A DNA stretch of 64,000 nt from Imbricaverruca yamaguchii. Lineage: Eukaryota > Arthropoda > Thecostraca > Neoverrucidae. The notes under the pieces were generated by a model, which was given only the letters and a program-made list of their open reading frames with translations, was not told the DNA's origin and made no database searches. A program made the position numbers and the translations under genes. This document shows positions 84 through 60,080 of this stretch, in pieces (within the stretch, counting starts at the first letter, position 1; each line of letters opens with the position of its first letter). Location: assembly GCA_034440575.1 (NCBI GenBank), contig JAOTOL010001392.1:612001-676000 (forward strand). Direction: 5' to 3'.

Positions 84-2030
84 TTTACTGCCCTGGTCTG
101 TCACAGCAAACGGTGTGGGATAAGTTACGGCTTTCCAGGATCTATCCGAGCAGATTTCTGTGCATTAGTTGTCTTTCCTCCTATCCTACGGTTAACCTTA
201 CCATCAGTAGGTACCCCATGTCACCCATGTATTAATATTTACCAAGTCGTCACAGCCATTGAATCTGCTTGAGACACCGCTACTCTTATTGGACATTTCG
301 ATCAATGGATATCGATGCCATCAGAAAAGCATATTCCCCCAGCAGCGAAACTGGCCTTACTTCCACAAGGGTGATGATTAGAGGTTCTGACAACGCGGCC
401 AGAAATGAGAACTATATGAGAACTCCTCTCACGTCTGCCATTTGTTTGTACTGTCCGACATTTCGCACCTCTTTATATTTGTCCCCGGGACAGAAACAAA
501 TACAATCCGGTCAATTCGGGTCATTTCAGGTTTTTCATTGTCCACCTAATATCATGTTCTACTACTCACGTGGCTCTGGAACCGAAGTCAAATTTCACTT
601 CACGAGGAACAGTAGCCTTCGGCATAAGACGACAGTGCGTGCATAATATCACCGAAGCAGCTGACACGCACAAAAAATCCCACCTACACACATAAGATGA
701 CGGTGTAGAATATATATAACACTTGACCTGACCTAACGCTATTGACTATGTCGTATATTTGAAAGCAGAATGTCTACATAATTATTTTATCATGTTCTAC
801 ATGAAACGTTTTCTCCTTACTACGATAAAAAAATAATCTGACCCGACCTCAGTTTAATAACCATGACCTTAAACAAAATATCCGGAAAGCAGAGTTGTTC
901 GTTTGATTGCATGGAAGAACAGCATGCTCTAAGTGTGATGTTGCTACGCTGCGACTACTTCAAATGACGGCATTTTGGATATTTTGGAATAATATGCTCC
1001 TTAATCCGTCCCAACCCAATTTGAAGAGGAAGTATCAATGAATTTCGCACTTGACATTACTTCTGGGAGGGCAAGCATTGCAAGCACAGGGTTGCAGCAA
1101 AAATGCTCCTGTTGGGACACACCGGGGCGGGGACCATGCCAATTCCGCCGATTTGAAAACTGTTGATTTCTGCCATTAATCCCACATTCCGAAGTTTTGT
1201 GCATATTTATTTCCGACTCTAGCAAAGAAACAATTCGGCCGACATATCCATTTCCAAACCATCGGATGGCCATTCTGAGAATCTCTTGGGATGATCTTTT
1301 CGGACTTCCTGGCCGTGACTGGAGAGGCATGTGCCTAGTGTGTTCTATTCTTGGTCTTGGATGCGCCATTTGGTGCGGACGGAGTTTTCAGACTGTTGCA
1401 AAAAAGCACATAGTAGAACGATTGCGCTGATCGGTGCCTGCGGTCCATTGTGCATCTTAGTTTGCTTGTTGTCGTGTGTGGTAACTGACTAGACTCGGCG
1501 ATCACGATGACTGCATCAATGCACATGATTAATCAGAGGACATTGTTTTCGATATCTCCGCTTTTGTGAAAGCTGTGTGTCTTCCCCGACCCCGAACTCG
1601 CCCAAGCACAACTTTGGCTTCGCCACTCCCGAATGTTAGGCGCCAAGGAAATACTATCACTAATTGCCATCACAGTTCAGGTCTGCTGTGATCCTATACT
1701 GTATCAAGGCCGGCGTGTTTTAGCCTGCCGGACACATTTTTATTTAAGCCGGTGTGTGCTTGTTGGTGTGTGGAGTGAGGGGAGGAGGGTGACGGTGACG
1801 ATAGATCCGAGCCCACTGTATGAAACTGCCGTCGCATGCCGTTACTCAGAGTTGTTATGTTGACATGTAATATGCACTGCTCATTTAATTATGACTTCAC
1901 CGGTTATTGGACGACTTTCCCCGTTGGTGAGTAAGGTGAATACACATAAACATACACATCGTCGAATAGTAACTCAGAATTTCTGAGATCTGAAAATATA
2001 GTGGGCGAAATCCGATGAGTTTTTGTTTGG
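84..2030. repeat. ~2 kb dispersed repeat, left member of inverted pair IR-1
   Basis: The sequence is clearly homologous, in inverted orientation, to 36055-39260. Aligned landmarks include the block at 240-330 (partner near 39080), the block at 590-640 (partner near 38640), 1070-1560 (partner near 37400-36920) and 1880-2030 (partner near 36230-36060). No long open reading frame is shared by both copies. This member lacks the two insertions (36552-36898 and 37643-38356) present in the other, so it serves as an empty-site reference. Its class is not recognised; it may be a non-autonomous DNA element. Confidence 0.75.
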
Positions 2031-2985
2031 TTGGTTGGGGGGGATCGTGCGTTGACGCTTCGCGCCCCAATGTTTTTAAAAATCGACACCCTGGCAGTAG
2101 GTAATGTGTTGTAATATTTTGGGCAAGCGGTTAATTGTGGATCGCCCTATATGGCTTTGAATAGCGTCAGCCAGCATTAGTCTTTTCGTGTGTGAAGGCG
2201 ATTGAAAGGAGCTGCCGCAGCCACTCTGTTCACGAACCTCACCGGGACCCGCCGCAGACCAGAGCTCTCGTAGGAAAAAGGAGAATGCCGGTCTGAATAC
2301 CCCGTTAGTCTCGACAGCCAGATATCCGAAACGGTAACGGCTGCTGAGCTGCTCATATCGCCGGTATGTGTACTCAGCAGCGCGCGCCGTAGCGCACAGT
2401 CGCAGCGTATAATGATACTGCAAAAATTATAAAAATTTGCGAACATTTGACCATCACTTAACTGCGCGTTGAAGCAGCGATCACCCAAAATATATTGATC
2501 ACGGGATCTCGTCGTGCGTCACTCACCGTTTGGAAATGCTAGGAAATAGTTGGAACTGCATGCACCAAACATATCCCTGCAGCAAAAAGCAGCCTAATTT
2601 TTATACTAATTTCTTTCTGACCGTTGTGACTATACATGTGGTAGAAATCCTTTCATTTGTACCATTTGTACCCTTTGTAGAAATCCTTCCTTTCATCATT
2701 TAACACTATTTGTTCCACATCGCGTGTACTTAATTACTTACAGGTAACACCAATGTAGACATGCCCAAGGCGATATATACGAGGTGGCGTCATCCCTACT
2801 GCGCAGCTTTCTGCGCAGGTCATTATATGACGTCATCAGGGGTACCACTTAATACGGGCCAAGCCGCTAACACGCTGTCGAATATACGAAGCGTATGCAT
2901 AGTACGGGGGATAAAATGCGGATTTAATAGATGCAGGTGAAAAACTTAGAGCGTCATAGTCCCGGAAGGGACCTCCAATAACTTT
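2031..2985. other. gene-free stretch
   Basis: Nothing supportable as a gene is seen. Overlapping minus-strand frames at 2076-2488 show no recognisable domain. Short internal repeats of the form ATTTGTACC occur near 2660-2690. Confidence 0.5.
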
Positions 2986-3085
2986 TATACACATATTATA
3001 CCCGGAAAAACGTACAAAGCGAGGTAGGACAAGGCAAGATAAAGCAACAAGGGGTCAATCCGTAGCAGGGACATCATATGCCCAG

Positions 3086-3895
3086 GTGGTCGCAGGCCAC
3101 CAGGTAGCTGAGGTTTCCCCTACTGTGGAGGTGGCTGGGATCTCTCAAGAGGGGAGTGTTAATAGTGTTAATAGTGAACAGAGGAGGGGTAGTTCTGGTA
3201 GGTCACAGGAGGGGAAGTGGCATGAGGTCAGGGGGTGGAGGATTTGGAGACGCGAACCTAAGGAAAGGGTCAGTGAGTGGCAGGTGGCAGGTGGTAGGAG
3301 CGGGAGGAAGTGTAGCCGACCGGCCCAGCGGGCAGGCATAGTAACAGCAAATATGTTCCAGGCATTAGATGACTGCCCCCAGGATAGCAGTAGTAAGGAG
3401 TCAGTGCTGGTCATAGGAGACTCTCGTGTGCGTCATTTAGAGCGGGTATTTTGTAAAGGTAGGAGGGACAGGAGGTGCATTACCAGGCCTGGTGCCAAGG
3501 TGAAGGACCTGGTAACTGCGGTGGCACAGGTCACCAGTGATCACCAGTTTAACACAGTCATAGTGCATGTAGGGGTAAATAACATAGGTCATACTAGGAG
3601 CGAGGAGCTTCTGCGGGAGTACAGGGCCCTTCTGGCCACCCTGAAGGGTACCAATAGAGTGCTTGTAACAGGAATTTTGCCTAGGGCTAGAGCCTCCCCT
3701 GAGTGGAGCTCTAGGGCACTGGCAGCTAACACCAGGGTAGGAAAGCTCTGCCAGGAGCTAGGTTTTACATTTGTAGACGAGTGGAGCAGGTTTTATGCAT
3801 CGTGGGACCTCTATCAGAAGGATGGCCTGCATTTTTCTGAGAAGGGGGTCCATGTGTTAGGCAAAGTATATGAGCATGTCCTTCAGGGAAACTAG
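3086..3895 (+). CDS. CR1-type LINE ORF1, SGNH/GDSL esterase-like protein (copy A)
   Basis: The 269-codon frame carries an SGNH-hydrolase-like fold. GDS lies at residues 111-113 (VLVIGDSRVRHL), GVNN at 163-166, and the final DGLH at 246-249, so Ser, Asn, Asp and His catalytic-type residues are all present. In CR1-group LINEs this esterase-like domain belongs to ORF1, thought to act in the retrotransposition RNP. The N-terminal zinc/coiled-coil part seen in copy B is not obvious. The first codon listed is GTG, and the frame stays open upstream to about 3002 without an ATG, so the true start is lost or mutated. The stop UAG at 3893-3895 follows CAG-GGA-AAC directly and overlaps the ORF2 frame. 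Confidence 0.8.
   Translation: MVAGHQVAEVSPTVEVAGISQEGSVNSVNSEQRRGSSGRSQEGKWHEVRGWRIWRREPKERVSEWQVAGGRSGRKCSRPAQRAGIVTANMFQALDDCPQDSSSKESVLVIGDSRVRHLERVFCKGRRDRRCITRPGAKVKDLVTAVAQVTSDHQFNTVIVHVGVNNIGHTRSEELLREYRALLATLKGTNRVLVTGILPRARASPEWSSRALAANTRVGKLCQELGFTFVDEWSRFYASWDLYQKDGLHFSEKGVHVLGKVYEHVLQGN
3886..3892 (+). promoter_or_regulatory. putative -1 frameshift slippery heptamer (copy A)
   Basis: GGGAAAC sits in the ORF1 phase as G-GGA-AAC, directly followed by UAG. Reading GGG-AAA-CUA in the -1 phase enters ORF2 without a stop. The heptamer matches the X-XXY-YYZ rule and is conserved at the same place in copy B. A G-rich stretch follows at 3901-3913, but no pseudoknot was worked out. Confidence 0.55.
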
Positions 3896-6800
3896 GAAAT
3901 GGGGTGGGGAGGGATGAAATTGCATTGCCAACTCAGGAATATTCCAATAGTGTCAGCCAAGGCAATAGAACCTCAAAGTCTCCAAATAGGGACAGCAGCA
4001 ACTCAAGGGGACAGAGTTATAGTTCATCTAGTGATAAAAGAACTCCTCAATATGAAAAAGCCAAAGGTGGTTATGGAGCATTTGTTAAGTGTATGATGTT
4101 TAATGCTCAGAGTATCCGTTCCAAATTTGATGAGTTCAAGTGTTATGTTGCTGAGGAGGAACCGGATTTTGTTTGCATTACGGAGGCATGGGTCAGTGAA
4201 GGATATTTTGGAGATAACTTACAGGACTATGAGATCCAGGGATACAATATGTTTTCGTGCAATAGGGGTCCAGCAATGAAAGGGGGTGGTGTAATGCTCT
4301 ATGTGAATAGCTTATTCAGTTCTCAAAAAGTAGCAGGTGGGGATAAAAATGTGTCTGTGGAGTCCATTTGGCTTGATGTCACTGTGGGAAAAGGCAACAG
4401 CAATACTCTTAGGATAGGAGCTTTCTACCGATCAGGAACCCTGCCACATTCTCAGCAACTGGAGCTTGACAAGGTGATTTGTGAGGAAATCAGTAGAAAC
4501 TTTAAGAGGAAGTGTCTTATTCTCGGTGACTTTAATCTAAAAGGTTATGAAAATGCTGGTGTTGGCTCCCCATCATGCAAAATGTTCAGGAAATGCCTTG
4601 AAGAGGACCTGTTCTTACACCAGTTTGTATCGGAACCTACCAGGCATGGTTCATTCTTGGACCTTGTATTCTCGGATTTAAGTGACTTGGTTCAAGACTT
4701 GACTGTAGGCGAAACTCTCGGAAAAAGTGACCATAACATAGTTAGATTCAAGGCACATGTAGGGGAAACTATCAAGGATAATTTGGTAAAGGTTCCAAAT
4801 TTCAACAAAGCAGACTTTAACGGCATGAGAGCGGCTTTAAGTGCCATCAGATGGGAAGAAGAATTCTCCAATTTAAATGCCTGTGAAATGTGGGAAAAGT
4901 TCAAATCTTACTTAAAGGAAACTCAGATTAGACATGTCCCCCAAAAGCAAAGACGCAAAAGAAGGGTAGGAAAGCCAGCATGGCTTACACCAGACGTGAT
5001 AAAAGCAATTAGGGCTAAGAAAACTGCATTTACAGTTTTTAAAGAAGCCTCAAATGTCATTAATCTAAAGGCGTATCGAAAAGCTAGAGACACTGTGAAG
5101 CAAAAAACCAGAGCAGCAAAGCGAGCAAAGGAACTGGATTTAGCTAGAAACTGTAATGGGGACAGTAAAAAGTTCTTTAGTTTCTACAAGCGGAGTAAAG
5201 TTTCTAACACAATTGGTCCACTGGAAGTAAACGGGACTACATTGGGTGAGGATAGTGAGATGGTTGAGGAGCTGAGCAAGCAGTTCAAATCAGTGTTTAC
5301 ATTGGAAGATATGACCAATCTGCCGACCGTACACCATAGTTCAGATACATGGGATCTGACAAATGATGTTGATTTCATTGGTAGTGATGTTGTTTACAAT
5401 CATATCATAAAAAAAAAGCCAAATAAGACAGAGGAACCTGATTATATTTTTTTTATGGTGTGGGGGAAAAAAAAAAAAAAAAGCATTTCTCTTTACTTAG
5501 TATAATATTTTGTAGATCAGTTTCACATAATGAAATTCCAACCGATTGGAAAAAGGCAAATGTAGTTCCTATTTTCAAGAAAGGAGAAAGGAGGGTAAGT
5601 TGACAACTATAGGCCAGTAAGTCTCACATCCCTAATCTGCAAGGTACTCGAATCAATTATCAAGGATATAATAGTTAGTTATCTAGAAGGTAGCAGATTG
5701 ATTCAAGATACTCAATGGGTTTAGAAAAGGACGATCGTGTCTCACCTCTTGCTTTTTAACTTCGCCACAGAACAATTTGATCAGGGAAATCAGGTTGATG
5801 TAGCATATCTTGACTTTAGTAAGGCCTTTAACAAGGTACCCCATAAACGGTTAATGATACAGCATCAGTCCCATGGTATTGCAGGTAGCATCTTAAAATA
5901 GATAGAGTTGTGACTTTCAGATAGACAGCAAAGAGTGATGCTAAATGGTACAAAGTCATCATGGCAAAATGTTCTTAGTGGAGTCCCCCCAGGGGTCAGT
6001 ACTGGGGCCACTACTGTTCATTATATTTGTAACTAACATTGAAAGTGGCCTAAGCAGTAAAGTTTTGAAATTTGCGGATGATTTGAAGGTCTTTAGGGCA
6101 ATAACAGGTCAAGATGAGCACATCTCGCTGCAAAAAGACTTAGACGAACTTGTGAAGTGGTCCGAAGAATGGCAAATTAAATTAAGTTTTGAAAGTGCAA
6201 AATCATGCATGTAGGTAAGCAGTATATGAAGGCTCCATACTTGATGGGTGGCCAAGTGCTTTCAGTGACTCAACAGGAGAAGGATTTAGGTGTTATTCTA
6301 AACACAAAACTGGGGGCATCAGAACAGACCAAGGAAACCAGGAAGAAGGCACTGAGAATGCTCGGGGCAATAAATAGGAATGTATCATACAGAAGTGAGG
6401 AAGTGATCAGGAAACTTTACTGTGCATACGTCAGGACACATTTGGAATATTGCATCCAAGCTTGGTCTCCTAGCTATGAAAAATATTGTTGGCTTTTAGA
6501 GAGAGTACAAAAGAGGGCTACAAAAATGGTTAATGGCATAAGCAACCTGGCATATGAGGAAAGATTGAAGAAATTGAATATGTTTTCACTTAGATATAGA
6601 AGGCTGAGAGGAGATCTCATCGAGGTCTTTAAATTTGTCCATGGTCTGGAGAGGGGATACCTTGGGAAAATGCTTGAATTGAACAGAAATGATGCAATTA
6701 GAGGTCATCAATTCAAAATTAAAATTAACCACAGCAGAACAAGGTTAAGGCAAACTTTCTTCACCAACAGGGTAGTAGAACACTGGAACCAGCTGCCAGA

Positions 6801-6900
6801 AAACATTGTCAGTAGCAGCACATTGAAAATCTTTAAAAACAGCATAGACAATCATCATAAGAATAGAGGGCTTGCTTTTCAGTATTACAGGGAGGGCTGA
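3886..6900 (+). pseudogene. CR1-type LINE ORF2, endonuclease-RT (copy A, broken)
   Basis: The -1 frame is open from 3874 to 5505 and holds an APE-type endonuclease: FNAQSIRSKF, ITEAW, GGGVMLYV, RIGAFYRSG, GDFN and SDHNIVRF. The frame is then lost at an A-rich tract near 5470. RT motifs continue in shifted frames: YLDFSKAFNKVP near 5805-5845, SGVPPG near 5980, and the catalytic KFADD near 6068-6082 in the frame 5945-6214. The C-terminal segment is open at 6205-6900 (LEYCIQAWSPS, NRVVEHWNQLP). At least three frame breaks and several stops make it non-functional. An in-frame ATGATG occurs near 4093, just before the endonuclease domain, and is the only internal AUG that could start it without frameshifting. 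Confidence 0.85.
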
Positions 6901-7000
6901 TTGACAGATTTGGTGGGCAACTGGTTCAGTGTACAGAGTGCAACCAAGAAGGGCCGTTGTGGCTCATAGTTGCACTAATCTGTTATGTCTTTATGTCTAA

Positions 7001-21130: not shown

Positions 21131-22215
21131 ATGACCAGCCACGACCCTTGGGAGGTGGAAACTGAGGTCACCCGTCGGACACAAGCTCTCCTACACGCAC
21201 GCCATCTAAAATCTGGGGAGCTCTTGATCCAGGCCTGCGACACCACGGACGCACACATCTTAGAGCAGATCACACACCTTTTAAACACACAGGTCACCAT
21301 AACACCAGACATACACCGCAACACATCTCAGGGGATAATACACGCATGGGAGTTGGAATGGATGCCTGAGGAGAGACTGGCTCGCAGGTTTGCGAGCCAG
21401 GGGATCTCCTCGGTGTACCGCCCCCCCCACAAACACACCAAACACTCACATTCTCATCCTGACTTTCACATCCAAACAACAACCCGCACATGTCACAGCT
21501 GGTTACATCACATACAAAGTAACATCACGTGCACCCCTCCCTCGTCGCTGTTCCTTTTGTCAAGGATATGGCCACACGAGGGGGCTGCAGACACACAAAC
21601 CCCACATGTGGCCTCTGTGCCGAACCACACTACACTATCGAGTGCACTAGTGAGGTTAGGAAATGCGTGGGCTGCGGCGGGAACCACTCCTCCCGGGACG
21701 GGGCTTGCCCTCGGTGGACGAAGGAGAAGGTCATCCTCCGACTCATCCACATCGAAGGCGTGGCCCCGTCGCGCGCACGGGAGTGGGGTGACGAGCAGTA
21801 CCCGATGCTCACCGCCCGGCCCACGCAGACACACACTCACCCTACAGCCACCCCTCAGGAAACCCAGACGGACCCTACAATTGTCATTCGGCCAGAACCC
21901 ACAACAAAACTTACGGCACAAGCACAGGCACCTCCCCTCTTACCACACCGCGAAGCATACAATCCACCACGCCTATCACTCTCCCCGGACCCACCCCAGG
22001 CACGCAAGGGGGAGTTTTTTCAGACTCCCCTTCACCACAGACCACCCACAGACTCAGAGGAAGAAGACATTAGCTCAGATAGCGCAGGAACCACTCTACA
22101 AACCACCCAAGCACCGACAACACGAGCAACCAACAAACCAAGCACTACATCCACGAACAAACCAACCACAACACCCATGAAAACCAGAACACGTAATAAA
22201 CCTACTCGACACTAG
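21131..22215 (+). pseudogene. gag-like ORF1 with CCHC zinc knuckles, non-LTR (Jockey/I-type), frameshifted
   Basis: The reading starts in one frame (MTSHDPWEVETEVTRRTQ...), continues through FASQGISSVYRPP near 21420, moves to a second frame for PLPRRCSFCQGYGHTRG near 21540-21580, and to a third for the knuckles CRHTNPTCGLC, CAEPHYTIEC and CVGCGGNHSSRDGACPRW up to 21720. Knuckles of this C-X2-C...GH/GNH...C type are typical of ORF1 of Jockey/I-group LINEs and bind nucleic acid. The tail is Thr/Pro-rich. Two frameshifts break it. No endonuclease or RT follows; (AAAACT)-like repeats at about 22377-22410 may mark the 3' end. It is an orphan, internally deleted or truncated copy. Confidence 0.7.
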
Positions 22216-28087: not shown

Positions 28088-30940
28088 TTAGAATTCAAAA
28101 ACAACATTTTCCTGTCTAAAAAATTTATCCACCCTACTTTTAAAGACATTCAATGAGGGACTCCCCACTGCATCAGCAGGCAGCCTATTCCATTGGTAAA
28201 CAACCCTTTGACTGAAGACCTGTTGTCGTTTAACTGTCCTGCACCTCATTTTGTCTAACCTGAATTGATGACCCCTATGGGATACTCTAAACTGCAGAGC
28301 ATCATTCAAATTGACCTGATCTAGCCCTCTAACAATTTTGTACATTTCAATCATGTCTCCCCTTAATCTCCTATACTTGAGTGAGTACATATCTAATGCA
28401 TTAAGCCTTTCTCCATATTCTAAGTTACTTAATCCACTGACGAGTCTAGTGGCTTTGCGCTGGACTCTTTCTAACATATCTATATCCTTTTCTAGGTAGG
28501 GGCTCCATGCTTGTACAGAGTACTCCAAGTGGGGCCGCACATATGCTAAGTACAGCTTTTTCATGACTTCCCTGCTCTTATATTTCATACTTCTATTTAT
28601 GAGTCCCAGCATTCTGAGTGCCCTATTTCTAGCTGAGATACATTGTTTTTCTGCTTTAAGGTCTTTTGAGACCAACACACCTAAGTCCCTTTCCTCTTCA
28701 ATAACATCCAGTTCCCTCCCTCCCATTTTATAACTGAATGTCTCGCCTGCAGACCCTATATGCATAACCTTACACTTATCATAGTTGAAAGTCATCTGCC
28801 ATTGATCAGCCCACTCTTTTAGGTCGTCCAAATCTAGTTGAATATTACTAGATTGATCTCTGCTGTTAGCCACTCCTACCAGCTTGATGTCATCAGCAAA
28901 TTTGAACACTCTATTCCTCAGCCCTACTTCAATGTTGTTCACAAAGATGATAAAGAGGAGGGGCCCTAGAACAGAGCCCTGTGGCACTCCACTCAGAACA
29001 TCTTTCCAACCAGATTTACATCCATTCAATACTACCCTTTGTTTCCTTCCCTGCAACCATGCTTCAATCCAATGTAGAACTTTTCCTACAATCCCATGTT
29101 GTTGTAATTGATGAATTAACCTTCCATATGGAACTTTATCAAAAGCTTTGCTAAAGTCCAAGTACACAACATCCATCCTGCTTTCATTGTCTACTTCTTT
29201 GGTAACATACTCAATGAACTCCAATAGGTTAGTTAAACAAGACCTTTGAGATCGAAATCCATGTTGAGTATCCCTTAAAAGGTTGTGCCTATCAAGATGA
29301 ATCTGAACATTCTGTTTAACCAGCTTTTCTAGTACTTTGCAAACTAATGAGGTCAAACTGATTGGCCTGTAGTTTCCTACACTCTTCCTATTTCCCTTTT
29401 TGAAAATTGGTACTACACTTGCATTTCTCTAATCTTCAGGTACTTCTGAATACTCCATAGATCGCCTGAAAATGATACCTAGGGGAGTTGCTAAAGCTTT
29501 AGCACACTCTACTAAGATCCTAGCATATATTTCATCTGGTCCGGAAGCTTTATTAGGTTTTATATTCTGCAACTGCTTCTCTACGGCTTCTGTAGTTATT
29601 GTAAGATCCTCCAGCATATCACCTGCCATGGCATGGCCTACAGATGTTCCTATTGTACCAGAATTATCTTTAGTGAAGACTGATGAGAATGGCTTGCTTA
29701 GGGATTCCACAATGTCGCAATCATCAACCACTATTTCCCCATCTACCTCCAGTGGTCCTACACTACACTTTTTAGCCTTAAATTTATAGAAGCTAAAGAA
29801 TCTCTTAGCATTACCTGCTGAACATTCTCGAGCAAAGTTGATTTCAGCAAGTCTTTTAGATGCTCTAACACACCTCCTAACTTTATTTCTAGCTATTCTA
29901 TATGATTCTAGGTTTAACCCAGAGTTAGTATCTTTTAGTTTCTTGAATGCTTGTTTCTTTGAGTCCAGTAATTGCTTAACTTCCCTAGTCAGCCACGAAG
30001 GGTGCTTAACCCTGTTTGATCTAATTTGCCTACTGGGAATGAACCTATCCTGACCCTGAAATAGCTTATCTTTTAGCATTGTCCACATTTCATAAGCATC
30101 TAAGCCATTCAATATGACTTCCCAATTAATTTCACTTAGGAAGCTCCTGAACTCACTGTAATTCCCTTTTGTAAAATTCGGAATCAATGTTCTGTTGGTT
30201 GCTACCCTTCCAACATATAATGAGAAGCATATAATGTTGTGATCACTATTACCAAAGGTCTCTCCTACGTTAACATTTTGCACAAAATTTTCCTCATTAG
30301 TAAGCACTAGATCTAATATTTTATTTTCCCTTGTAGGCTCGTGTATCATTTGAAAGAAGAAATTGTCCTCAAAACAAGCCATGAAACATCTTTCTGATTT
30401 GCTTACACCTATTGTTTTGTTTCCCAATCCTGCTATGTTGAAATCCCCCAACAAAATAGTTATCTCCTGTACTCTCCTACTTATCTCTTCCTGCATCAGC
30501 CTGTCAGTGTTTTCATTCTGGTCTGGAGGTCTATAGAATGCCCCAATCCTAAATTGTGTTCCATTCTTCAGAATTATATCTAACCACAAAGATTCTACTC
30601 CTGCACTATGTACTCCATCCTCTATGGAATGACATTTCATTACTTGCCTAACATACAAGAGAATGCCACCTCCTATCCTTGCCTCTCTTTGATAGGCATG
30701 CATGTTGTAGCCTGTCAATTCAAATTCTTGCAAGTTGTCTCCAAACATGCTTTCGTTAACCCATGCTTCTGTTATGCACACCAAATCTAGCTGTTCAGAC
30801 AACATATATGCATGCAGTTCCCCAATTTTGTTCCTAACACTTCTGGCATTGACATAAAAACATGATAAATTATTCCTTCCATTGCTTGCTATGTTTCTCT
30901 CTTTATCAGCTACATCCCCCCATGTCCTGCCTAGTTTCCC
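28088..30940 (-). pseudogene. CR1-type LINE ORF2, endonuclease-RT (copy B, one nonsense codon)
   Basis: From the slippery site the frame is 951 codons including the stop, interrupted only by UAG at 29431-29429, where TGG (Trp) is the likely ancestor (VPED-stop-RNASVVPIF). The endonuclease part shows YVNARSVRNK, CITEAW, GGGILLYV, RIGAFYRPP, GDFN and SDHNIICF. The RT part shows KPNKASGPDEI, NYRPISLTS, QHGFR, VYLDFSKAFDKVP, SGVPQGSVLGPLLF and the catalytic KFADD. The C-terminus has the usual LEYSVQAWSP and NRLPADAV segments. All catalytic motifs are kept. The first in-frame ATG (30805) would remove the start of the endonuclease, so translation from it is unlikely to give a full enzyme. Confidence 0.88.
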
Positions 30941-31806
30941 TGTTTCCTGTTGAGAGCCTCCTCATACCTATTGCTGAGCAATTCCACTCCTCTCTTGCTC
31001 AGATGTAATCCATCTAAAGCAAACATCTCCGTCCTCCCCCAAAACTCCCCCCACAAATCCAAGAACTGCACCCCAAGCTCCTTACAAATGTTGGCCACCC
31101 TGGTATTGAGCCCAATGGCCCTCGAATACCACTCCATGCTTGCATGGACCATAGGGAGGATGGATGTCACCACTCCTCTTTTCCTACTTCCTGCTAAACT
31201 ACCTATCGAAGCCCTATAGGCTTTCATTGTTTCCTCTGTATTATTTTTTCCTACATCGTTAACTCCAACCTGCACAATTACCGTTGCACCCTCTCCACTT
31301 CCCCTCATTACTCCCTCCAGCCTATCCCTAACATCTTTCACCTGCGCTCCCTGGTAGCAAACACGCATCCGTCTGCTGGGGTTCTTGCTACAAAATGTTC
31401 GATCCATGTACCGAACCCTGGAATCCCCTATGACTAAAACCTCTCTCTCTCCATCTCTATCTTCAGCCATCTGGTCATCCCCACCTCCGTCCCTCTCATC
31501 ATTACCTTCCCTCTCCTCCAGTGCATCAAACCTATTTTTAATTGGGATGCCCATGTCCACCTTCCTCAGCGCCAGTCGGGTGCTATGGCGCCTTGCCACC
31601 TTCCAACTGCCACCATCCCGGACCAAGCCATCCGAACTCCCATCAGTCCTCCGCTCGGGCACCCGAGTTGCCTGGCTGGCACCTCCCATGATGGGTCCCG
31701 CCACCAAACACTTCAAGCGCTCCACCTCCCCCGTTAACATATCTAACCTCTTACTCAAGTCCCCAATGATTCCCACACACTTACAATTCCCACAGTCTCC
31801 TTCCAT
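30931..31806 (-). CDS. CR1-type LINE ORF1, SGNH/GDSL esterase-like protein (copy B)
   Basis: The product is 291 residues and starts at an ATG (MEGDCGNCKC). The N-terminus has a Cys cluster (C5, C8, C10) and a Leu-rich coiled-coil-like stretch at residues 14-36. An acidic linker lies at about 95-120. The SGNH-like domain carries GDS at 127-129, GVND at 181-184 and DGLH at 265-268, so the Ser-Asn-Asp/His residues are kept. It belongs to the CR1 ORF1 family, where the esterase-like domain is thought to function in the RNP or at membranes; the substrate is unknown. It is intact over its full length. It ends NRKQGN-stop, with the last codons CAG-GGA-AAC-UAG forming a slippery site shared with copy A. 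Confidence 0.88.
   Translation of the reverse strand: MEGDCGNCKCVGIIGDLSKRLDMLTGEVERLKCLVAGPIMGGASQATRVPERRTDGSSDGLVRDGGSWKVARRHSTRLALRKVDMGIPIKNRFDALEEREGNDERDGGGDDQMAEDRDGEREVLVIGDSRVRYMDRTFCSKNPSRRMRVCYQGAQVKDVRDRLEGVMRGSGEGATVIVQVGVNDVGKNNTEETMKAYRASIGSLAGSRKRGVVTSILPMVHASMEWYSRAIGLNTRVANICKELGVQFLDLWGEFWGRTEMFALDGLHLSKRGVELLSNRYEEALNRKQGN
30934..30940 (-). promoter_or_regulatory. putative -1 frameshift slippery heptamer (copy B)
   Basis: GGGAAAC on the minus strand is phased G-GGA-AAC in ORF1 and is followed at once by UAG. Slipping back one base reads GGG-AAA-CUA-GGC and continues into ORF2. The ORF2 frame contains no ATG before codon 46, which lies inside the endonuclease domain. A UGA blocks the -1 frame shortly upstream, so entry must occur in this ~20-nt window or by reinitiation. 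Confidence 0.6.
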
Positions 31807-42427: not shown

Positions 42428-45243
42428 GGGGAGGTTGTACCCAGCAGACCCAAATTCTTCATTTTTTGACCAAACTCTTTTATACTTTGTAATAATATAT
42501 TTGACCCCAATGCAATTGCTATGGAACAATCATTTTTTTCTATAAAACTGCCTTAAGCCAGGAAAAATCCAGATGGCGCCGTGCGCTGGGTCCGAAAGCC
42601 ACCCTCCAGTTTTTGAAGCATACCTGCAAAAGGAATGGGGCATTTACACTCAAATTTTTGCTAGCTGTTTGCAACCACATAAGCTAGGTCCCAAACCTAA
42701 AAAAAAGTTACTCTTTATACCAAATAGTCATGTGACAGTCTAATTTCCTAGGAAATGGAGAAAAAGGCTCGTGCGCACAACAGTTTTGAGCTTAATACCT
42801 AGCTGGTCAGTTTAGAAATCAATACAATCTTAAATTAAGAGGTTTAGGACCAAGTAACATCATTTTAGAACACATCTGGAAATTTTGAAGCTAATCTGAC
42901 CACAACTTTTGGAAAAATGTTGAAAATAATCAAGCCATGATGTTCAAAAAAGTGATTCTCTAAAATTAATGTTCAAAATTTACACTTCTAGCGTGATCTT
43001 ATTTGCTAATCTAAGTCAGTTCTTACTTGTTAGAAGCCTCCTGGGTTGTAGTCAGCTTCATCAGCCTTCTTCTGCAGGCTTTTGTCCTTCCTCCTCTGCT
43101 TGGTTTTCTTGCTACTTGCTGCCAGTGACGACAGCACACGACTCCTGTCCCGCCTGATCATTCCTCTGAATGTGTAGTATCCAGTACCTAGGTACAGTCC
43201 ATTGAACATTTCTACTTTTCCAGTTTCTCCATCATTATACTGGATCACTGCCTCATCGAGACCAATCTCTAGCCTCTTTCTGCCCGCAAACACCTCCTTG
43301 GGGCACTTGGTCCAGATGATGTTGTGGAGGGAGTCATTTGTGTTTTGAGTCCCTCCATTCAGGCACTTTTGTAGGAGATCTGGGGCTGCCAGACTCCTGA
43401 ACACAGGTTTGATCTCATCCATTATGTATGAAGGCAGTGCATTCTTGTTTGCCTTCTCATCTTTTGTGCACCATGTGCCACACATTTGATGCTCACCTTT
43501 GCGGTGGAAGTAGATAGCCCAAACAGCCTTCCTCTTTCCGCTTAGGTCACCTTTGTGGTCTCTGATGGCAGCACCATTGTGACCTTGCACTCTGGCGATG
43601 GCACACTTACTGAGCTTCTTTTGTCCACCAATACCTTTCACTTTCTTCCCACCATCTGCTGTTAATTGTTTGTTCTTGCACTCAGAGACCTTCTTCATTA
43701 GGTGATTGGTCATTATCTGTTGAATGTGCCCTACGCACTCAAGCTTTTCTATTTCCCTTTCTTCGTGCTCAGGAGGGACTGCTTCACTCACTGTCTTGAA
43801 TGATTTGCTGTCACCATCTCCCAGGAAAGAGGTGTACCTCAGCCCATGTGTCTTTTCAGAGCGTCTGAATACTGCTAGAGCTCCCTTCGGCTCCATGGAG
43901 CCAGCTGGTCCATCATGATTGGATGTACAATCAGACTTGTGGCCTGCCATCCATTCCTTGAGCTCCTCACCTGACATTCTGGTTTTGGCAAGTGCACAAG
44001 CCTGACAGTAGGAGGTGAGCAGTTCCACATCAAGGACTTTGCAGGTCAGGTCATTTGCAACACTGACGCATGTCACAACACCATTATTTTTAGGAAAACC
44101 CCCTTTTCTACCATGTGCCATCAACCGAAACAGCAACATCACAACCATCTTTCTTCAACTCCTCACCTGCTTTTGCCATGGATTTCTTTGACACATTTTT
44201 CAAGGCTGAGTGAATCCTGTTTGTATACTTTTCCCATGCTTTCACACTTACAGGGGGAGGCATGTTCAAATGCGTGAGCAGAGTTTCTGCTGCAGTCCTG
44301 TTTTTCCCAATGGCCAAAATTCCTTGAGTGAATCTGCTATTAACCTCATAGCCTCCCTTTGGTACCTCTTGATGTCCCTAGAGCTTGTGAGTACCCACAC
44401 TGGCACGCGTATCTCAGTGTAGACTGGCAGCCTCGCTGAGTCTCGGATACACACTTGAGATTACATTCCTGGCATTCTGGGCAGCACAGATTTGCAATGA
44501 GATCATTGAGCAAGTCCACATCCATCAAACGAAACCCAGTAATTTTCCTCTCTGTTCCAAATGTGCTCGTCATGACTTCATTCTGGATTTTTCGTCCAGA
44601 AGCAGACGTATCCAAGTCAACTTTTGGTGCGCCACAATCGCCTACAATACCTTCTCCAGCATCCTCTGCTCCTGTCTGTTGATCCAACCTAGGTTTTTTC
44701 ACCACATGCTGGTTGCCTTGAAACTTCCGTCGGTTTTTGCCCCGATATCTGCCCATTTCTGGCCAAAATAGCAACAATATCAAGCACGCAAAACTTCGTC
44801 ACCATCAGAATATCGCTAAACAAGCCCACAGGATGTAAACAATTCCAGCGTCTCGGCTCTCAGCTGACAACCATGAAACGAGTTCTCTGATTGGCCGGCT
44901 GCCGCAAGGCCACGCTCTAACAACCAATGAAAATCGATTTAACAAATGAATCGCCGCACTGGATCGACGCTATTCAGCGTCAAAAGATCTATCGATTCGT
45001 GCTTAAAGTGTGAAAATCCGTCCATAAATATCGATGATATGGGTAAAAATATAAGACCAGTGTCCGAAGAAGGAAAGCATAGGTAGATAAAAACTACTTT
45101 TTGAGATATTATTATACTTCAATGCCAAAAAAGAGCAACGCCATTCGAAAGACCATGCTTCAATTGCCCGAAAACAGCACAAAAAAAAACAAGAAGATTG
45201 ATGATTTTGCCCAAACTCGATCGTGAAGGGGTACACCCTCCCC
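42428..45243 (-). mobile_element. Mutator-like DNA transposon (MULE), defective
   Basis: It encloses the broken transposase at 43030-44783. Candidate termini are GGGGAGGTTGTACCCA at 42428-42443 and the inverted GGGGAGGGTGTACCCC at 45228-45243, 14 of 16 identical. A matching 9-bp target duplication was not found, so the boundaries are tentative. Confidence 0.5.
43030..44783 (-). pseudogene. Mutator-like transposase, three frameshifts
   Basis: Four overlapping minus frames join into one family-like order. 44783-44346 has a Cys-rich zinc-binding segment (CCPECQECNLKC ... CQCG). 44454-44266 continues with SSRDIKRYQREAMRLIADS. 44317-44108 has NMPPPVSVKAWEKYTNRIHS and ends CDVAVSVDGTW. 44148-43030 has NNGVVTCVSVANDLTCKVLD, SYCQAC, GDGDSKSF and KLECVGHIQ. 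The order SVDGTW, GDGDSK, then KLECVGH is that of the animal Mutator-like transposase domain, a DDE nuclease that cuts and pastes DNA; the first two Asp residues are kept. Frame changes fall near 44400-44450, 44300 and 44120. The rest of the coding sequence looks otherwise well kept, so the copy is probably recently dead. Confidence 0.8.
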
Positions 45244-49458: not shown

Positions 49459-50346
49459 CATGCTCATTCATCGTTTCGGGTTTCAGGTTTTACTGCGTTT
49501 CGTTCCAACCGTGGGAAGAACGGAAGTATTCTGTTTCAACAGCCGATCTCGGGAATTGCATCGCAGTGCAGTATTAACAGCGGCAACGACAGCAACAGCA
49601 GCCAACGCTCTGAGGATGCCAGCGACACTTCGCGACGACTACCCAGGACTCAGCCGGCAGCGAGTTCGTACGACTGTGACGTGTGTGGCAAGGTGTTCAA
49701 GAGTCGTGGATGGCTGCTTCGACACTGCAAGATGTACATGGATACAAAGGCGTACAGTGGCGACAGTCGGTACAGACATTCAAAACAGACAGGCTTGTTT
49801 AGTTACATGAGAATCCACAGCAAGGAGCGACCATATAAATGTGAGACATGTGGCAGGACGTTTGCTGCCAAGACTACCTTAATTGTGCACTCGAGAACCC
49901 ACACGGGAGAGCGACCTTACAAATGTGAGACATGTGACAGGTCGTTTATTGTTAAGGCACACTTAGTTACTCACATCCGAACCCACACTGGAGAGCGACC
50001 TTACAAATGTGAGACATGTGACATGTCGTTTATTGTCAAGGCACGCTTGGTTGCTCACATCCTAACCCACACTGGAGAGCGACCGTACAAATGTGACATA
50101 TGTAACTGGTCGTTTATTGCCAAGTTGAGTTTAGTTACTCACATGAGAACCCACACTGGAGAACGACCGTACAAATGTGCGACATGTGACAGGTCGTTCC
50201 CTGCCAAGAGGAACTTGGTTAGGCATATGATAATGCACACTGGAGAGCGACCTTACAAATGTGAGACATGTGACAGGTCGTATACTGCCAAGTGGACTTT
50301 AGTTGCTCACATGAGAACCCACACTGGGAAGCGACATTATAAATGA
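49459..50346 (+). CDS. C2H2 zinc-finger protein, exon with six canonical fingers
   Basis: The frame is open from after a TAG at 49456-49458 to TGA at 50344-50346. A splice-acceptor-like GTTTCAG ends at 49486, so the exon may begin there. A Ser/Asn-rich region precedes CDVCGKVF, a degenerate first finger near 49676. Six regular fingers follow at 28-residue spacing with TGERPYKC linkers, first Cys at codons 54, 82, 110, 138, 166 and 194 counted from 49681, each with C-X2-C and H-X3-H. Such arrays bind DNA in the nucleus, usually as transcription regulators; the target is unknown. The stop results from TGT to TGA at the first Cys of the next finger, so the array is shorter than its ancestor. Upstream exons were not identified. 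Confidence 0.75.
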
Positions 50347-56153: not shown

Positions 56154-59100
56154 TTTATTTATTTATTTATTTATTTAACAATACATGTCCTCCACGTGCA
56201 GTGGCTGTTACGGACAGTCTGGGTTGAACTCACAGATATTTACAAAGAAAGGATAGATGTGTGGTCAATAGTGGGAGCAGATGCGCAACAAACATTCGTA
56301 CACCAACATAATACAATATCCATATCACTTTCCGCACTGCATACACCGTACTTGCAACACGAGCTATACACGAGTGGCTTGTATAAGTGATAGGAAAGCG
56401 ATGGCCTAAAGGTGACTTCGTAGGGTACACATATCCATGGTGTAAGTTTTTTTTTGTGTGACTAGTGTTGTTCGTGGAGACACGCTAGTGCATGTTTCTT
56501 GAAGCTAGAGAGCCTCGATGTTTTTGTTTCAGTAGGAAGTTTGTTGTAGTGGAAGACAGATGAGTAGAGAAATCTCCTGCGGCCAGCCTCTCTGTGTATG
56601 GCTGGCAGGCGCAGATGGTCGTCTGCACGTGTGTGACGGCTTCGCAGGGTAGAGTTTGCAGTGATTTGACCGGCAATGTGCGTAGGCTCACCCGTCAGAA
56701 TGACCTTGTGGAGCAAAGTGAGACTGTGAAATAGGTACAGATCAGCTGCAGTGAGGAGACCCAACTCGTTTCGGACATCAGTAATATGATCAAATTTTCG
56801 GAGACCTGACACGACTCTAGTGGCGAAGTTAATGATCTTGTCTAGTCTGTGGATATTTGCTGACGACCCGTTCCCGTAAACAGATATGCAGTATCGGATA
56901 TTGGATATAACTAGGCTATTGACTATAGTGAAGAGGGTGCTGGTCGGCAGATGGTGACGCAGATGGTTCAGGGCCAGAAGGAACCCAGTACACTTCCGGA
57001 CAACAACAGCTACATGGGAATCCCACGACATGTGGCGATCAAATGTTACCCCAAGGTTCTTACACGAATGTTTCTCATCTAGCGCGGCGTCCCTAAAGCA
57101 CACTCGTATCGGGGTAATATTCCGCAGATTTTGACGCGATCCAAGAGTAAGAAGCTGAGTTTTGGTCGGGTTCACCTTCAAGCCGTTATCCAGGAAGTAG
57201 TCGTAGAGTTGGCTCAGGCATGTCTCCATCTGACTTATCAGATTTGGGGGATCAGATTTCCGACCGGAGATGAGGACCTGTGTGTCGTCTGCGAACTGGG
57301 TGACATGTGCTTCCGGGACGTGCAGACTGAGGTCGTTCGAAAAGATGCAATAGAGAAGTGGACCTAATGATGAGCCTTGAAAGACACCTATGTTGTTTGG
57401 GAGAAAGGAGGAGAGATGCCTGTTTCCGTGTTGATCTTAGATCCTAACAGCCTGCGTGTGACCTCCCAGATATGCTTTAAACCAGTCGGTATCGATTCCA
57501 TGGAGTTCAAGTTTAGTGAGCAGTTTGGTTTGGTCTATTACATCGAAACATTTACTGAGATCTAGAATGCAAAGGAGAGCTACTTCCGAACGGTCCATTG
57601 CTGGTAGTATTTCGTCCGTGACTGAGATAAGGGCGGTTTCCGTAGAGTGGCGTGGTCTGAAGCCGTGCTGAGTTTGGGCCAGTAGGTGGTTTGAGTTTAG
57701 GTAGTGATAGAGGTGTTTCTGCACTACTCTCTCAGTGATCTTGGCGATATCCGGAACCAGTGAGATGGGTCTAAAATTAGAGGGATCCGAAGGATCTCCT
57801 GATTTGTAAATGGGAGTTACTATTGACTGTTTCCAAGTGGAGGGGATATCAGCTGTAGTCAGGCAGGTGTTTATAATGTCGAGCAGCACTTCGCCGATAA
57901 AAAAGAACAGAAATTTGATGACCTTAATACAGATCCCGTCGGGTCCGCACGCACTTGTGCTTCTCATGTTTATGACGATTTTGGCTAGCTGTTCAAGAGA
58001 TATGGGTGATACTTTATACGAGCTGGTAGAGACGCGCGATAGCCGGCAACTGGGAGATGTGTGTTCAGGCATGTTTGCCTGGAGTTTGACCTCTGCGGAT
58101 ATTTTTGGTCCGACACTAACAAAATAATGATTTAGCTGCTCAGGTAGAACCTGAGGTTGTACTCTGTGATATCCTTTTTTTGTATCGATAATAGGCTTGA
58201 TAGCACGCCACGCAGCTGATGGGCCTTTTTGAGCTATCTTTCCGCTAATCTCTTCCCTACAGTCAGCTCTAATAGCTGATCGAACTTGTCGGTTAAGTAT
58301 TTTGTAAGTGTTTCTATCTTGTAAGCGTAAGGCTACATTTCGCCGATGCATGAGATGTTTGGTAGCTTCGCTAACATGTGGTGCTGTTGGGTTCCGAATT
58401 TTGATGTTTCTGAGTGGCAGGTGCTCGTCGAGAATAGGTGTCAGCAATCTCAGCAGTGTGTTCCATTTATCGGTTACTGAGATGCGACCAGTGACCTGGA
58501 CGCAGTCGATCTCACCAAGGTCAAGGGTCAGTTCGGATGTGTCCACTCGTCCGAAAGAACGTTTTTTTATCACGGTGTTAACTGAGGCAGGCCTGTTTAC
58601 TTTAATTGAACATGTGATAAATTTGTGGGGACTGTAGTGGTAGAAACTCACTTTGGGTCTGTCGACAGAGGTGGGTGAATTTGTTATGATGACATCCAAT
58701 AAAGAGCCTGTGGAGAATGTAGGGCGCTTCACTATCACGGTAAGTGAATAGTTTCTTACGAACTCAAGCAGGTGTGTTTTGCTGGGGCAATTTGCCGTGT
58801 CGAGAAGATTGCAATTTAGATCACCTGCGAGGTAGAAAGTGCCGGTAAAGTTCAGTTTCGCCAATTGAACCTGTCTTTCGAGCTCAGCGAAGTCAACATT
58901 CAAGGCAGGTAGACTGTTACGAGAAGGTCGATAGATTGCCGCCAGAATGAAATACCTTCCGCTTTTACCTTTTACTTTGGTCCAGAGTGATTCTAGTTTG
59001 GAGCTCGAGTTTGGAAGCGTAGAAATTTTCAAAACGGTAATAGTAAGCGCTGACTTGGCGATAATCGCCACCCCACCGTAGCCACTAGAGTCAGGCCGGT

Positions 59101-60080
59101 CCGCACGTTTTAACTGGTAACCAGGGAAGTTAATGAGACGCGTGGGGGTGCTAGGTCGCAGCCAGGTCTCAGTCACCACAGCTAGGTCTAGAGAGTAAGA
59201 AAGAAAGTCGTGTTGTAGCTCAAGTAGCTTAGGTTTCATAGATTGGGCATTTATGAGTCCCAGGTGCAGCTGCCCTTTGCGCTCCTGAACCGTCGCCTGT
59301 CTTGTTCCGCCCCGTGATCCCCGTCGTCTGCCACCCCTGGCGCCGCGCCTGCCCCGTCGTGTTTTCTTTGGCGTTGTCATGGTAACGCCGACGGTCTGGT
59401 TTCTCGTTCTGCAGATGCGAGGGTGGTGACTGGCGGGAGTCAAGGTCGCGTAGTTGATGGCGTCGCGGACGGGGCGGCTGCGTGCGCGTTGCTGACCGGG
59501 GGACGTGATGGCGTTGAACATTTGGACCAGGGCGATGGTTAGCAGAAACCTGATGATGTCTGTATGCATGGTAGAGTTGAAAATGGAAGACTGGTAGAGC
59601 TGAAGATGGAAGACTGGTAGAGCTGAAGATATACGATAGGAGGCAGACGTCACTGTTGTTAGAGTCACAGGAATTCCGAGCGGCACCAAGTCGTCAGTCC
59701 AATCAATTTCTTCTCAGCTGCAGTGCAGAAAAGAAGACTGGGCACGGGCAGTACCTGATGCTTGATGGAAGGGCAGTCACTATGGAGAAGGGCGCTGTTA
59801 CTTCAGCACACACTCAGTTTTTAGGAGTCCAATCACTGCCGTGTAAACTTTGCGCACGTGTAGCGTATGAGTACGTCGGTTTAGATCACTATGCCACTTT
59901 TTCTTCTTTTTTTTACTCGTACACTTCACTAGTTTGTTCACTTCTTCACATGTTCACTTCTCACTCAGAGTATCACACACCTTGCATACAGAGGCAACGA
60001 AGAGGGCGAGGGAAAGGCTGGGCAAGCGACCGAGACACGTCAGCCCGTGGCGCCGCGCTCAGGACAACTGACAACAGGAC
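56154..60080 (-). mobile_element. L2-like non-LTR retrotransposon, nearly complete
   Basis: On the minus strand there is a GC-rich 5' region, one long ORF2 (59689-56462), a ~300-bp 3' UTR and a (TAAA)n tail at 56154-56176. A 23-bp tandem duplication (TGAAGATGGAAGACTGGTAG plus AGC) lies at 59578-59625, near the start of the ORF. The 5' boundary is uncertain and set near 60080. It sits between the two IR-2 arms. Confidence 0.75.
56462..59689 (-). pseudogene. L2-like LINE ORF2, endonuclease-RT with one nonsense codon
   Basis: One frame of 1076 codons is broken only by UAA at 57439-57437. The N-terminus is Arg/Gly-rich (KKTRRGRRGARGG near residues 105-117), likely RNA-binding. The endonuclease part has LINAQSMKPKL, VVTETWL, YGGVAIIAK, AAIYRPSR and GDLN. 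The usual SDH is SPH here (YHYSPHKFI), a loss of a catalytic Asp. The RT part has STSACGPDG, NFRPISLVP, QHGFRPRHST, CILDLSKCFDVI, GVFQGSSLGPLLYCIF and the catalytic QFADD. The C-terminal segment through RYCISVYGNG and NKLPTET is intact to the stop. Possible starts are an ATG at 59689 or a later one before TTPKKTRRG; the sequence does not decide. Confidence 0.85.

Follow-up and report, generated by a model that had tools for sequence, protein, structure and literature searches.

How does a retrotransposon with two open reading frames (ORFs) make its second protein from one RNA? For long interspersed nuclear elements (LINEs) of this kind, this is a long-standing question, and the answers have mostly been reinitiation or unexplained starts. 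We considered it for two LINEs in a stretch of 64,000 nucleotides (nt) from Imbricaverruca yamaguchii (GenBank assembly GCA_034440575.1, contig JAOTOL010001392.1, positions 612,001 to 676,000 of the forward strand). We call this whole stretch the window, and our coordinates are numbered within it. Copy B, a minus-strand LINE, has a putative slippery site at the junction from ORF1 to ORF2, and copy A, from a second family, has the same site. Judging from the DNA, we think it quite probable that -1 ribosomal frameshifting at the end of ORF1 fuses the ORF1 protein (ORF1p) to the ORF2 protein (ORF2p) in both families.

The end of ORF1 in copy B

ORF1 of copy B matches PF13472 (E = 3.5e-10), and its 3' end reads CAG GGA AAC TAG (30931-30942, minus strand). 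The wider context of the switch, on the same strand, is AAC AGG AAA CAG GGA AAC TAG GCAGG. The heptamer GGGAAAC is in the phase of ORF1 (G_GGA_AAC), as it is in copy A, and it fits the X_XXY_YYZ rule for -1 frameshifting. The stop codon lies directly 3' of it. ORF2 is in exactly the -1 register relative to ORF1: after a slip of one base at the heptamer, the reading would be GGG AAA CTA GGC AGG ACA TGG, which is the ORF2 frame. This frame is open from stop to stop (30961-29429). Because a TGA at 30964-30962 shuts it just upstream, a -1 shift into ORF2 would be confined to 30931..30961. The first methionine of ORF2 is codon 46, counted from the GGG codon. It is inside the endonuclease, beyond the endonuclease-start residues that copies A and B have in common. 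The initial annotation of this DNA had described these features (the end of ORF1, the fit of the heptamer to the rule, the register of ORF2, the UGA upstream, and the lack of an AUG before codon 46), and all of them held up.

ORF2 of copy B has matches to PF03372/PF14529 (endonuclease) and PF00078 (reverse transcriptase). It is not intact, as there is a TAG at 29429-29431, between the endonuclease and the reverse transcriptase. In many other copies of family B, a 957-amino-acid (aa) ORF2 frame is open at that position.

The same junction in a second family

Copy A (2960-6900, plus strand) represents a second family of LINEs with an esterase-type ORF1, and it is laid out like copy B. Its ORF1 also matches PF13472 (E = 1.1e-10). 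Its ORF2 is in the -1 register as well, with 69 codons that do not include an ATG. (For ORF2 of copy A, we have a profile match for the endonuclease part only, and we judged the reverse transcriptase end by eye from the translation.) The proteins of the two copies are just 40% identical in ORF1 and 39% identical in the compared part of ORF2. We refer to both families as CR1-type, which is a provisional label from their domain layout (an esterase in ORF1, and an endonuclease and a reverse transcriptase in ORF2) and not from a tree of reverse transcriptases. CR1-type LINEs typically finish, at the 3' end, in short octamers repeated in tandem; reading the 3' flanks of these copies by eye did not delimit the ends of the elements.

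The 13-mer CAGGGAAACTAGG is found at the end of ORF1 in copy A (3884-3896) and is identical to the junction of copy B. It occurs twice in the window (0.00 matches expected from shuffles), once at the end of each esterase-type ORF1. Similarly, GGGAAACTAG has two matches in the window, at the ORF1 ends of A and B, versus 0.13 expected in shuffles. Across both ORFs, copies A and B keep the same codon in 125 of the 299 columns with an identical residue, so it is striking that the junction codons, the stop codon and the base after it are all identical, although this would not settle the matter by itself. The joint probability that both overlap windows would contain an in-phase canonical heptamer by chance is about 0.002; this figure does not yet demand that the heptamer and its position be the same in both.

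If some transcripts contained an intron, its removal might join the two ORFs. We consider this extremely unlikely. ORF1 and ORF2 overlap (by 31 nt in copy B and by 22 nt in copy A), which leaves nothing between them to splice out. Also, reverse transcription of the spliced RNA would yield spliced copies too.

Another way to make ORF2p would be termination and reinitiation, or initiation without an AUG, after the UAG of ORF1, a route suggested for both SART1 and human L1. For these two elements, passages of PMC2881922 describe a dependence of ORF2 translation on that of ORF1, possibly through reinitiation. A recoding review (PMC5009743), in its passages on non-LTR elements (LTR, long terminal repeat), considers a start in L1 that needs no AUG. 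There are even AUGs close by, which begin at the fourth base (A) or the eighth base (B) after the UAG. However, these AUGs are in the wrong frames in both copies, and copy B has no in-frame AUG ahead of the endonuclease. By eye, the early codons of ORF2 do not include a CUG, GUG or ACG at a position common to A and B. Reinitiation would also leave unexplained both the in-phase heptamer and the ends of related ORF1 proteins (described below). Overall, we think that a fresh start on ORF2 is unlikely.

Table 1. Features of the two LINE copies in the window
Feature	Position	Strand	Remarks
Copy B, ORF1	30931..31806	-	ATG at 31806 to TAG; 291 aa; SGNH/GDSL esterase-type ORF1p
Copy B, putative slippery heptamer G_GGA_AAC (GGGAAAC)	30934..30940	-	In ORF1 phase; final ORF1 codons
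Copy B, ORF1 stop TAG	30931..30933	-	Directly 3' of the heptamer
Copy B, overlap of ORF1 and -1 (ORF2) frames	30931..30961	-	31 nt
Copy B, ORF2 frame, N-terminal part	29429..30961	-	Linker and APE-type endonuclease; stop to stop
Copy B, ORF2 frame, C-terminal part	28088..29428	-	Reverse transcriptase; same frame after TAG; PF00078, E = 2.4e-36
Copy B, G-rich stretch GCAGGACATGGGGGGATGTAGC	30909..30930	-	Just downstream of the switch; possible stimulator or pause
Copy A, ORF1 frame	2960..3895	+	Esterase-type; ends CAG GGA AAC TAG, next base G
Copy A, putative slippery heptamer G_GGA_AAC	3886..3892	+
Copy A, overlap of ORF1 and -1 frames	3874..3895	+	22 nt
Copy A, ORF2 frame	3874..5505	+	Linker and endonuclease; codon 70, counted from the shift site, is the first Met

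Genomic copies of the two families

We searched for copies of both families in the 767-Mb assembly that the window comes from. Of the first-look candidates, 150 of 4790 were scored for family B and 150 of 5817 for family A, and all of those scored were listed at 99-100% identity. Each family is thus abundant, with best copies that are nearly identical. We fetched the junctions of 115 loci (65 from family A and 50 from family B), including the two copies in the window (L001 and L031). The first 60 loci were chosen as the best matches to the queries, so they are biased towards identity, while L061-L115 take in decayed copies.

The heptamer GGGAAAC is kept in 62 of the 65 loci from family A and in 49 of the 50 from family B, which bears out its conservation, a check that the initial annotation had proposed. 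The entire 13-mer CAGGGAAACTAGG is present in 58/65 and 49/50 loci, respectively. The one B locus that lacks it is L085, whose ORF1 breaks off ahead of the junction. Seven A loci lack it (L062, L066, L102, L106, L110, L111 and L112), and four of these (L062, L102, L110 and L111) still have GGGAAAC. (We set aside a tenfold lower variation in the 13-mer than in its flanks in family A, because the pattern used to choose the rows covers part of the 13-mer.)

The -1 frame is open as far as the endonuclease motif in 55 of the A loci and 42 of the B loci, and it is broken before the motif in 14 loci. According to the initial annotation, related copies with an in-frame AUG for ORF2 upstream of the endonuclease would count against frameshifting. 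Among the loci with an open frame, 96 of 97 have no methionine before the endonuclease motif. Beyond the junction, ORF2 frames of 957 or 1010 aa are open in many copies. These results bear on the simplest objection, that a single decayed copy happens to match the heptamer. Although the ORF2 of copy B is indeed broken by a TAG, the two divergent families share the site, nearly all of the fetched copies have it, and many ORF2 frames are open. This largely refutes the objection, and we give it almost no weight.

Two loci of family A looked like candidates for a lineage in which the ORFs are fused, as both are open through both ORFs: L113 (1-701; 1321 aa) and L106 (1-701; 446 aa). We rejected both as single indel mutants, with a deletion in the end of ORF1 (L113) or small deletions (L106). 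Separately, a 1976-aa frame at C490 ends at the usual TAG (L080). In family B, a run of six Gs 3' of the switch varies in length: it has five Gs in L084, L091 and L095 and seven in L092, which breaks the -1 frame in these loci.

We did not find a third family at the DNA level when we searched the same genome with P0017, P0012, P0011, P0045, P0026 and P0025, which are among the ORF1 relatives described below. These searches each scored 91 to 128 of 393 to 6987 candidates, and the conclusion rests on 55 fetched junctions, all of which are from family A or B. Two scans of viral contigs (viral_contigs) and one scan of genome contigs (genome_contigs) did not find relatives either.

The C-termini of related ORF1 proteins

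Three protein searches, with about 8000 candidates scored in each, gave 51 relatives of ORF1p from metagenomic sources. P0001 is close to family B and P0002 is close to family A. We dropped four sequences that appear to be truncated or decayed (P0013, P0040, P0042 and P0051). Of the other 47, 29 end exactly in Gly-Asn (GN) or Lys-Asn (KN), and in another 8, GN or KN is followed by 1-10 further residues (37/47 in all). These proteins are not independent (they form 23 clusters at 60% identity), and we set aside a binomial value for their ends that presumes independence. Elsewhere in these proteins, GN accounts for 0.22% of dipeptides and KN for 0.13% (0.35% together).

G_GGA_AAC would encode GN, and A_AAA_AAC would encode KN. 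In the relatives, GN follows Q, S or K, each of which has a codon that ends in G; KN follows S, P, A or T, each of which has a codon that ends in A. At the level of protein sequence, the ends of the metagenomic proteins point to candidate heptamers.

Alternatively, ORF1p might need the QGN end as a C-terminal peptide; the heptamer would then be a by-product, and ORF2p would be made in some other way. The GN/KN dipeptide is very widespread, and both A and B have QGN, as this would predict. But KN replaces GN in one group of relatives, and in another group KN lies 9-10 residues before the end. P0008 and P0012 extend past QGN with extra residues. Furthermore, the identity between A and B continues through the stop codon and the following G, and the register is -1 in both. 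We consider a required peptide to be very unlikely. The predicted structure of P0001 has its last helix at 271-286, followed by coil, and the final residue has a pLDDT (predicted local distance difference test) score of 30, so the predicted fold leaves the conserved end of ORF1p unexplained.

To place the KN proteins, we used a tree of 41 of the 51 relatives, built from a core of at most 165 residues with the tails excluded. (Ten short, truncated or very distant rows were dropped.) The KN group P0034-P0037 adjoins relatives that end in SGN, QGN or SEN. This is as expected if heptamers were exchanged, rather than the peptide being kept. A second KN group (P0043, P0044, P0045, P0047 and P0048) is placed elsewhere, so that the KN label amounts to two changes on the tree. 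The deep order of the tree is unsure because of long branches, above all P0029.

Some relatives have other features near the C-terminus. P0043, P0044, P0045, P0047, P0048 and P0050 have SKN or TKN 9-10 residues before the end, which might be a shift site well upstream of the stop codon. Two distant ORF1-like proteins, P0023 and P0025, share a Phe-Leu-Gly C-terminus, which could be the product of U_UUU_UUA plus a GGN codon.

Proposed mechanism and points against it

The junctions of A and B have the features of a -1 frameshift cassette: a heptamer of the form X_XXY_YYZ in phase, an overlapping -1 ORF without an early start, and a site that is kept in relatives. The recoding review lists G_GGA_AAC with the -1 heptamers on which mammalian ribosomes shift most readily (PMC5009743).

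We propose that ribosomes would translate ORF1 as far as its last codons. Most of the ribosomes on G_GGA_AAC would read GGA-AAC-UAG and terminate, which would give ORF1p with its SGNH esterase domain. A minority would slip back by one base, with the P-site codon changing from GGA to GGG and the A-site codon from AAC to AAA; they would bypass the UAG and read GGG-AAA-CUA on into ORF2. The product of slippage would be an ORF1p-ORF2p fusion that includes the endonuclease and the reverse transcriptase. Slippage would fix a high ratio of ORF1p to ORF2p, as in gag:gag-pol frameshifting. That ribosomes slip, how often they do so, and that the fusion works as ORF2p are inferences from the sequence. 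The initial annotation had proposed a fusion by frameshifting at the stop codon of ORF1; the heptamer, the register and the missing ATG are common to two families, and they support this as a putative mechanism.

The RNA downstream of the junction might contribute. Of the 25 nt that are 3' of the switch, 14 are G in copy A (matched by 1% of windows along the element) and 12 are G in copy B (matched by 5.5%). We speculate that this G-rich stretch might pause ribosomes or form a G-quadruplex. For the best single stem that starts 3-10 nt downstream, shuffled sequences did as well or better in 8 of 200 cases (B) or 30 of 200 cases (A). A search of Rfam, with E values up to 1, gave only one weak and irrelevant match, to U6atac.

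Several results weigh against frameshifting. First, the initial annotation had suggested folding the downstream RNA to look for a pseudoknot or a stem, and we found no convincing one in A or B. Single-sequence folds downstream of the junction have z scores of -1.40 (B) and +1.33 (A), which is unconvincing. The folding energies of the junctions are middling among windows along each element (rank 38 of 77 in B and 30 of 80 in A). A simple custom search for H-type pseudoknots found none at either junction.

Second, two loci of family A have gained an in-frame ATG. In L107, which is the exception among the open frames, a point change creates an ATG at codon 35, upstream of the endonuclease. In L061, a point change creates an ATG at codon 7, but there is a stop at codon 43, so this is one of the 14 loci with a broken frame. 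Since each arose by one point change and 115 loci were compared, they do not alter our confidence.

Third, the identity of the heptamer between recent copies mostly reflects shared descent. Because of this, conservation among the copies shows that the site is normal for these families, not that it is selected. Fourth, the DNA of the junction comes from two families of one genome, and elsewhere the heptamer is deduced from protein ends. Finally, two of the 47 relatives (P0005 and P0020) end in EN, which does not correspond to a standard heptamer, and eight have neither GN nor KN near the end (P0007, P0023, P0024, P0025, P0027, P0031, P0046 and P0049).

If ORF2p is made by frameshifting, this predicts a working reverse transcriptase with an esterase domain at its N-terminus. 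The question can be tested directly in one family, because the heptamer can be silenced without changing ORF1p. More broadly, checking whether ORF1 proteins end in GN or KN would be a fast way to look for this switch in other LINEs.

Other elements in the window

The window contains another LINE ORF2, with an endonuclease and a reverse transcriptase, which is split by one in-frame stop (56462-59713, minus strand). There is also a fragment of a Mutator-like transposase (43030-44154, minus strand; PF20700, E = 4.4e-30) and an array of C2H2 zinc fingers (49459-50346, plus strand). A gag-like ORF (21523-22215, plus strand) has CCHC motifs that resemble zinc knuckles by eye, and no match in Pfam.

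Comparison with known systems

Families A and B have the same architecture as the CR1/L2-type LINEs with an esterase in ORF1: the esterase is followed by an ORF2 with an endonuclease and a reverse transcriptase. In a profile comparison, ORF1 here matches PDB entry 4c1b ("ORF1-encoded protein"; E = 4.5e-39), which we take to be the ORF1 esterase of ZfL2-1; the SGNH/GDSL domain is shared. In the mostly open-access literature on frameshifting with CR1 or non-LTR elements and on esterases with CR1, we found no description of a slippery site for -1 frameshifting at the ORF1-ORF2 junction of CR1-type or esterase-ORF1 LINEs. The non-LTR passages of the recoding review name HeT-A, TART and L1, and the term CR1 is absent there (PMC5009743).

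The initial annotation had set frameshifting here against the stop-reinitiation that is usual for two-ORF LINEs. Translation of ORF2 that relies on ORF1, possibly through reinitiation, is the usual account, going by passages of PMC2881922: in Bombyx SART1 and human L1, ORF2 is translated from the same RNA and depends on the translation of ORF1. SART1 and L1 are thought to start ORF2 anew, while in A and B the frames overlap and ORF2 lacks an early AUG. However, the contrast with two-ORF LINEs in general was too strong, because -1 frameshifting is already stated to be required for ORF2 in two L1-type LINEs of Dictyostelium, TRE5-A and TRE3-A, in a figure legend of a review (PMC5911963). Going by that statement, these elements are -1 frameshift LINEs, like A and B, but from another clade of LINEs and another host. 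In other words, a frameshifting LINE is already known in kind, and the putative site in a CR1-type LINE would be a new variant.

A slip like that of retroviruses has rarely been described for LINEs. The heptamer type, its phase, and the -1 second ORF of A and B are the same as in the gag-pro/pol frameshifting of retroviruses and LTR elements; retroviruses use G_GGA_AAC or A_AAA_AAC for this purpose. In contrast to those elements, ORF1 here is esterase-type instead of gag, and we found no pseudoknot or stem. Overall, we lean towards the view that a whole, old branch of esterase-ORF1 LINEs uses -1 frameshifting at the end of ORF1 to make its reverse transcriptase, which would be part of an ORF1-ORF2 fusion. 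The site would have been kept across deep divergence, with G_GGA_AAC and A_AAA_AAC being swapped, and the ratio of the two proteins would be set as in retroviral gag:gag-pol, by convergence.

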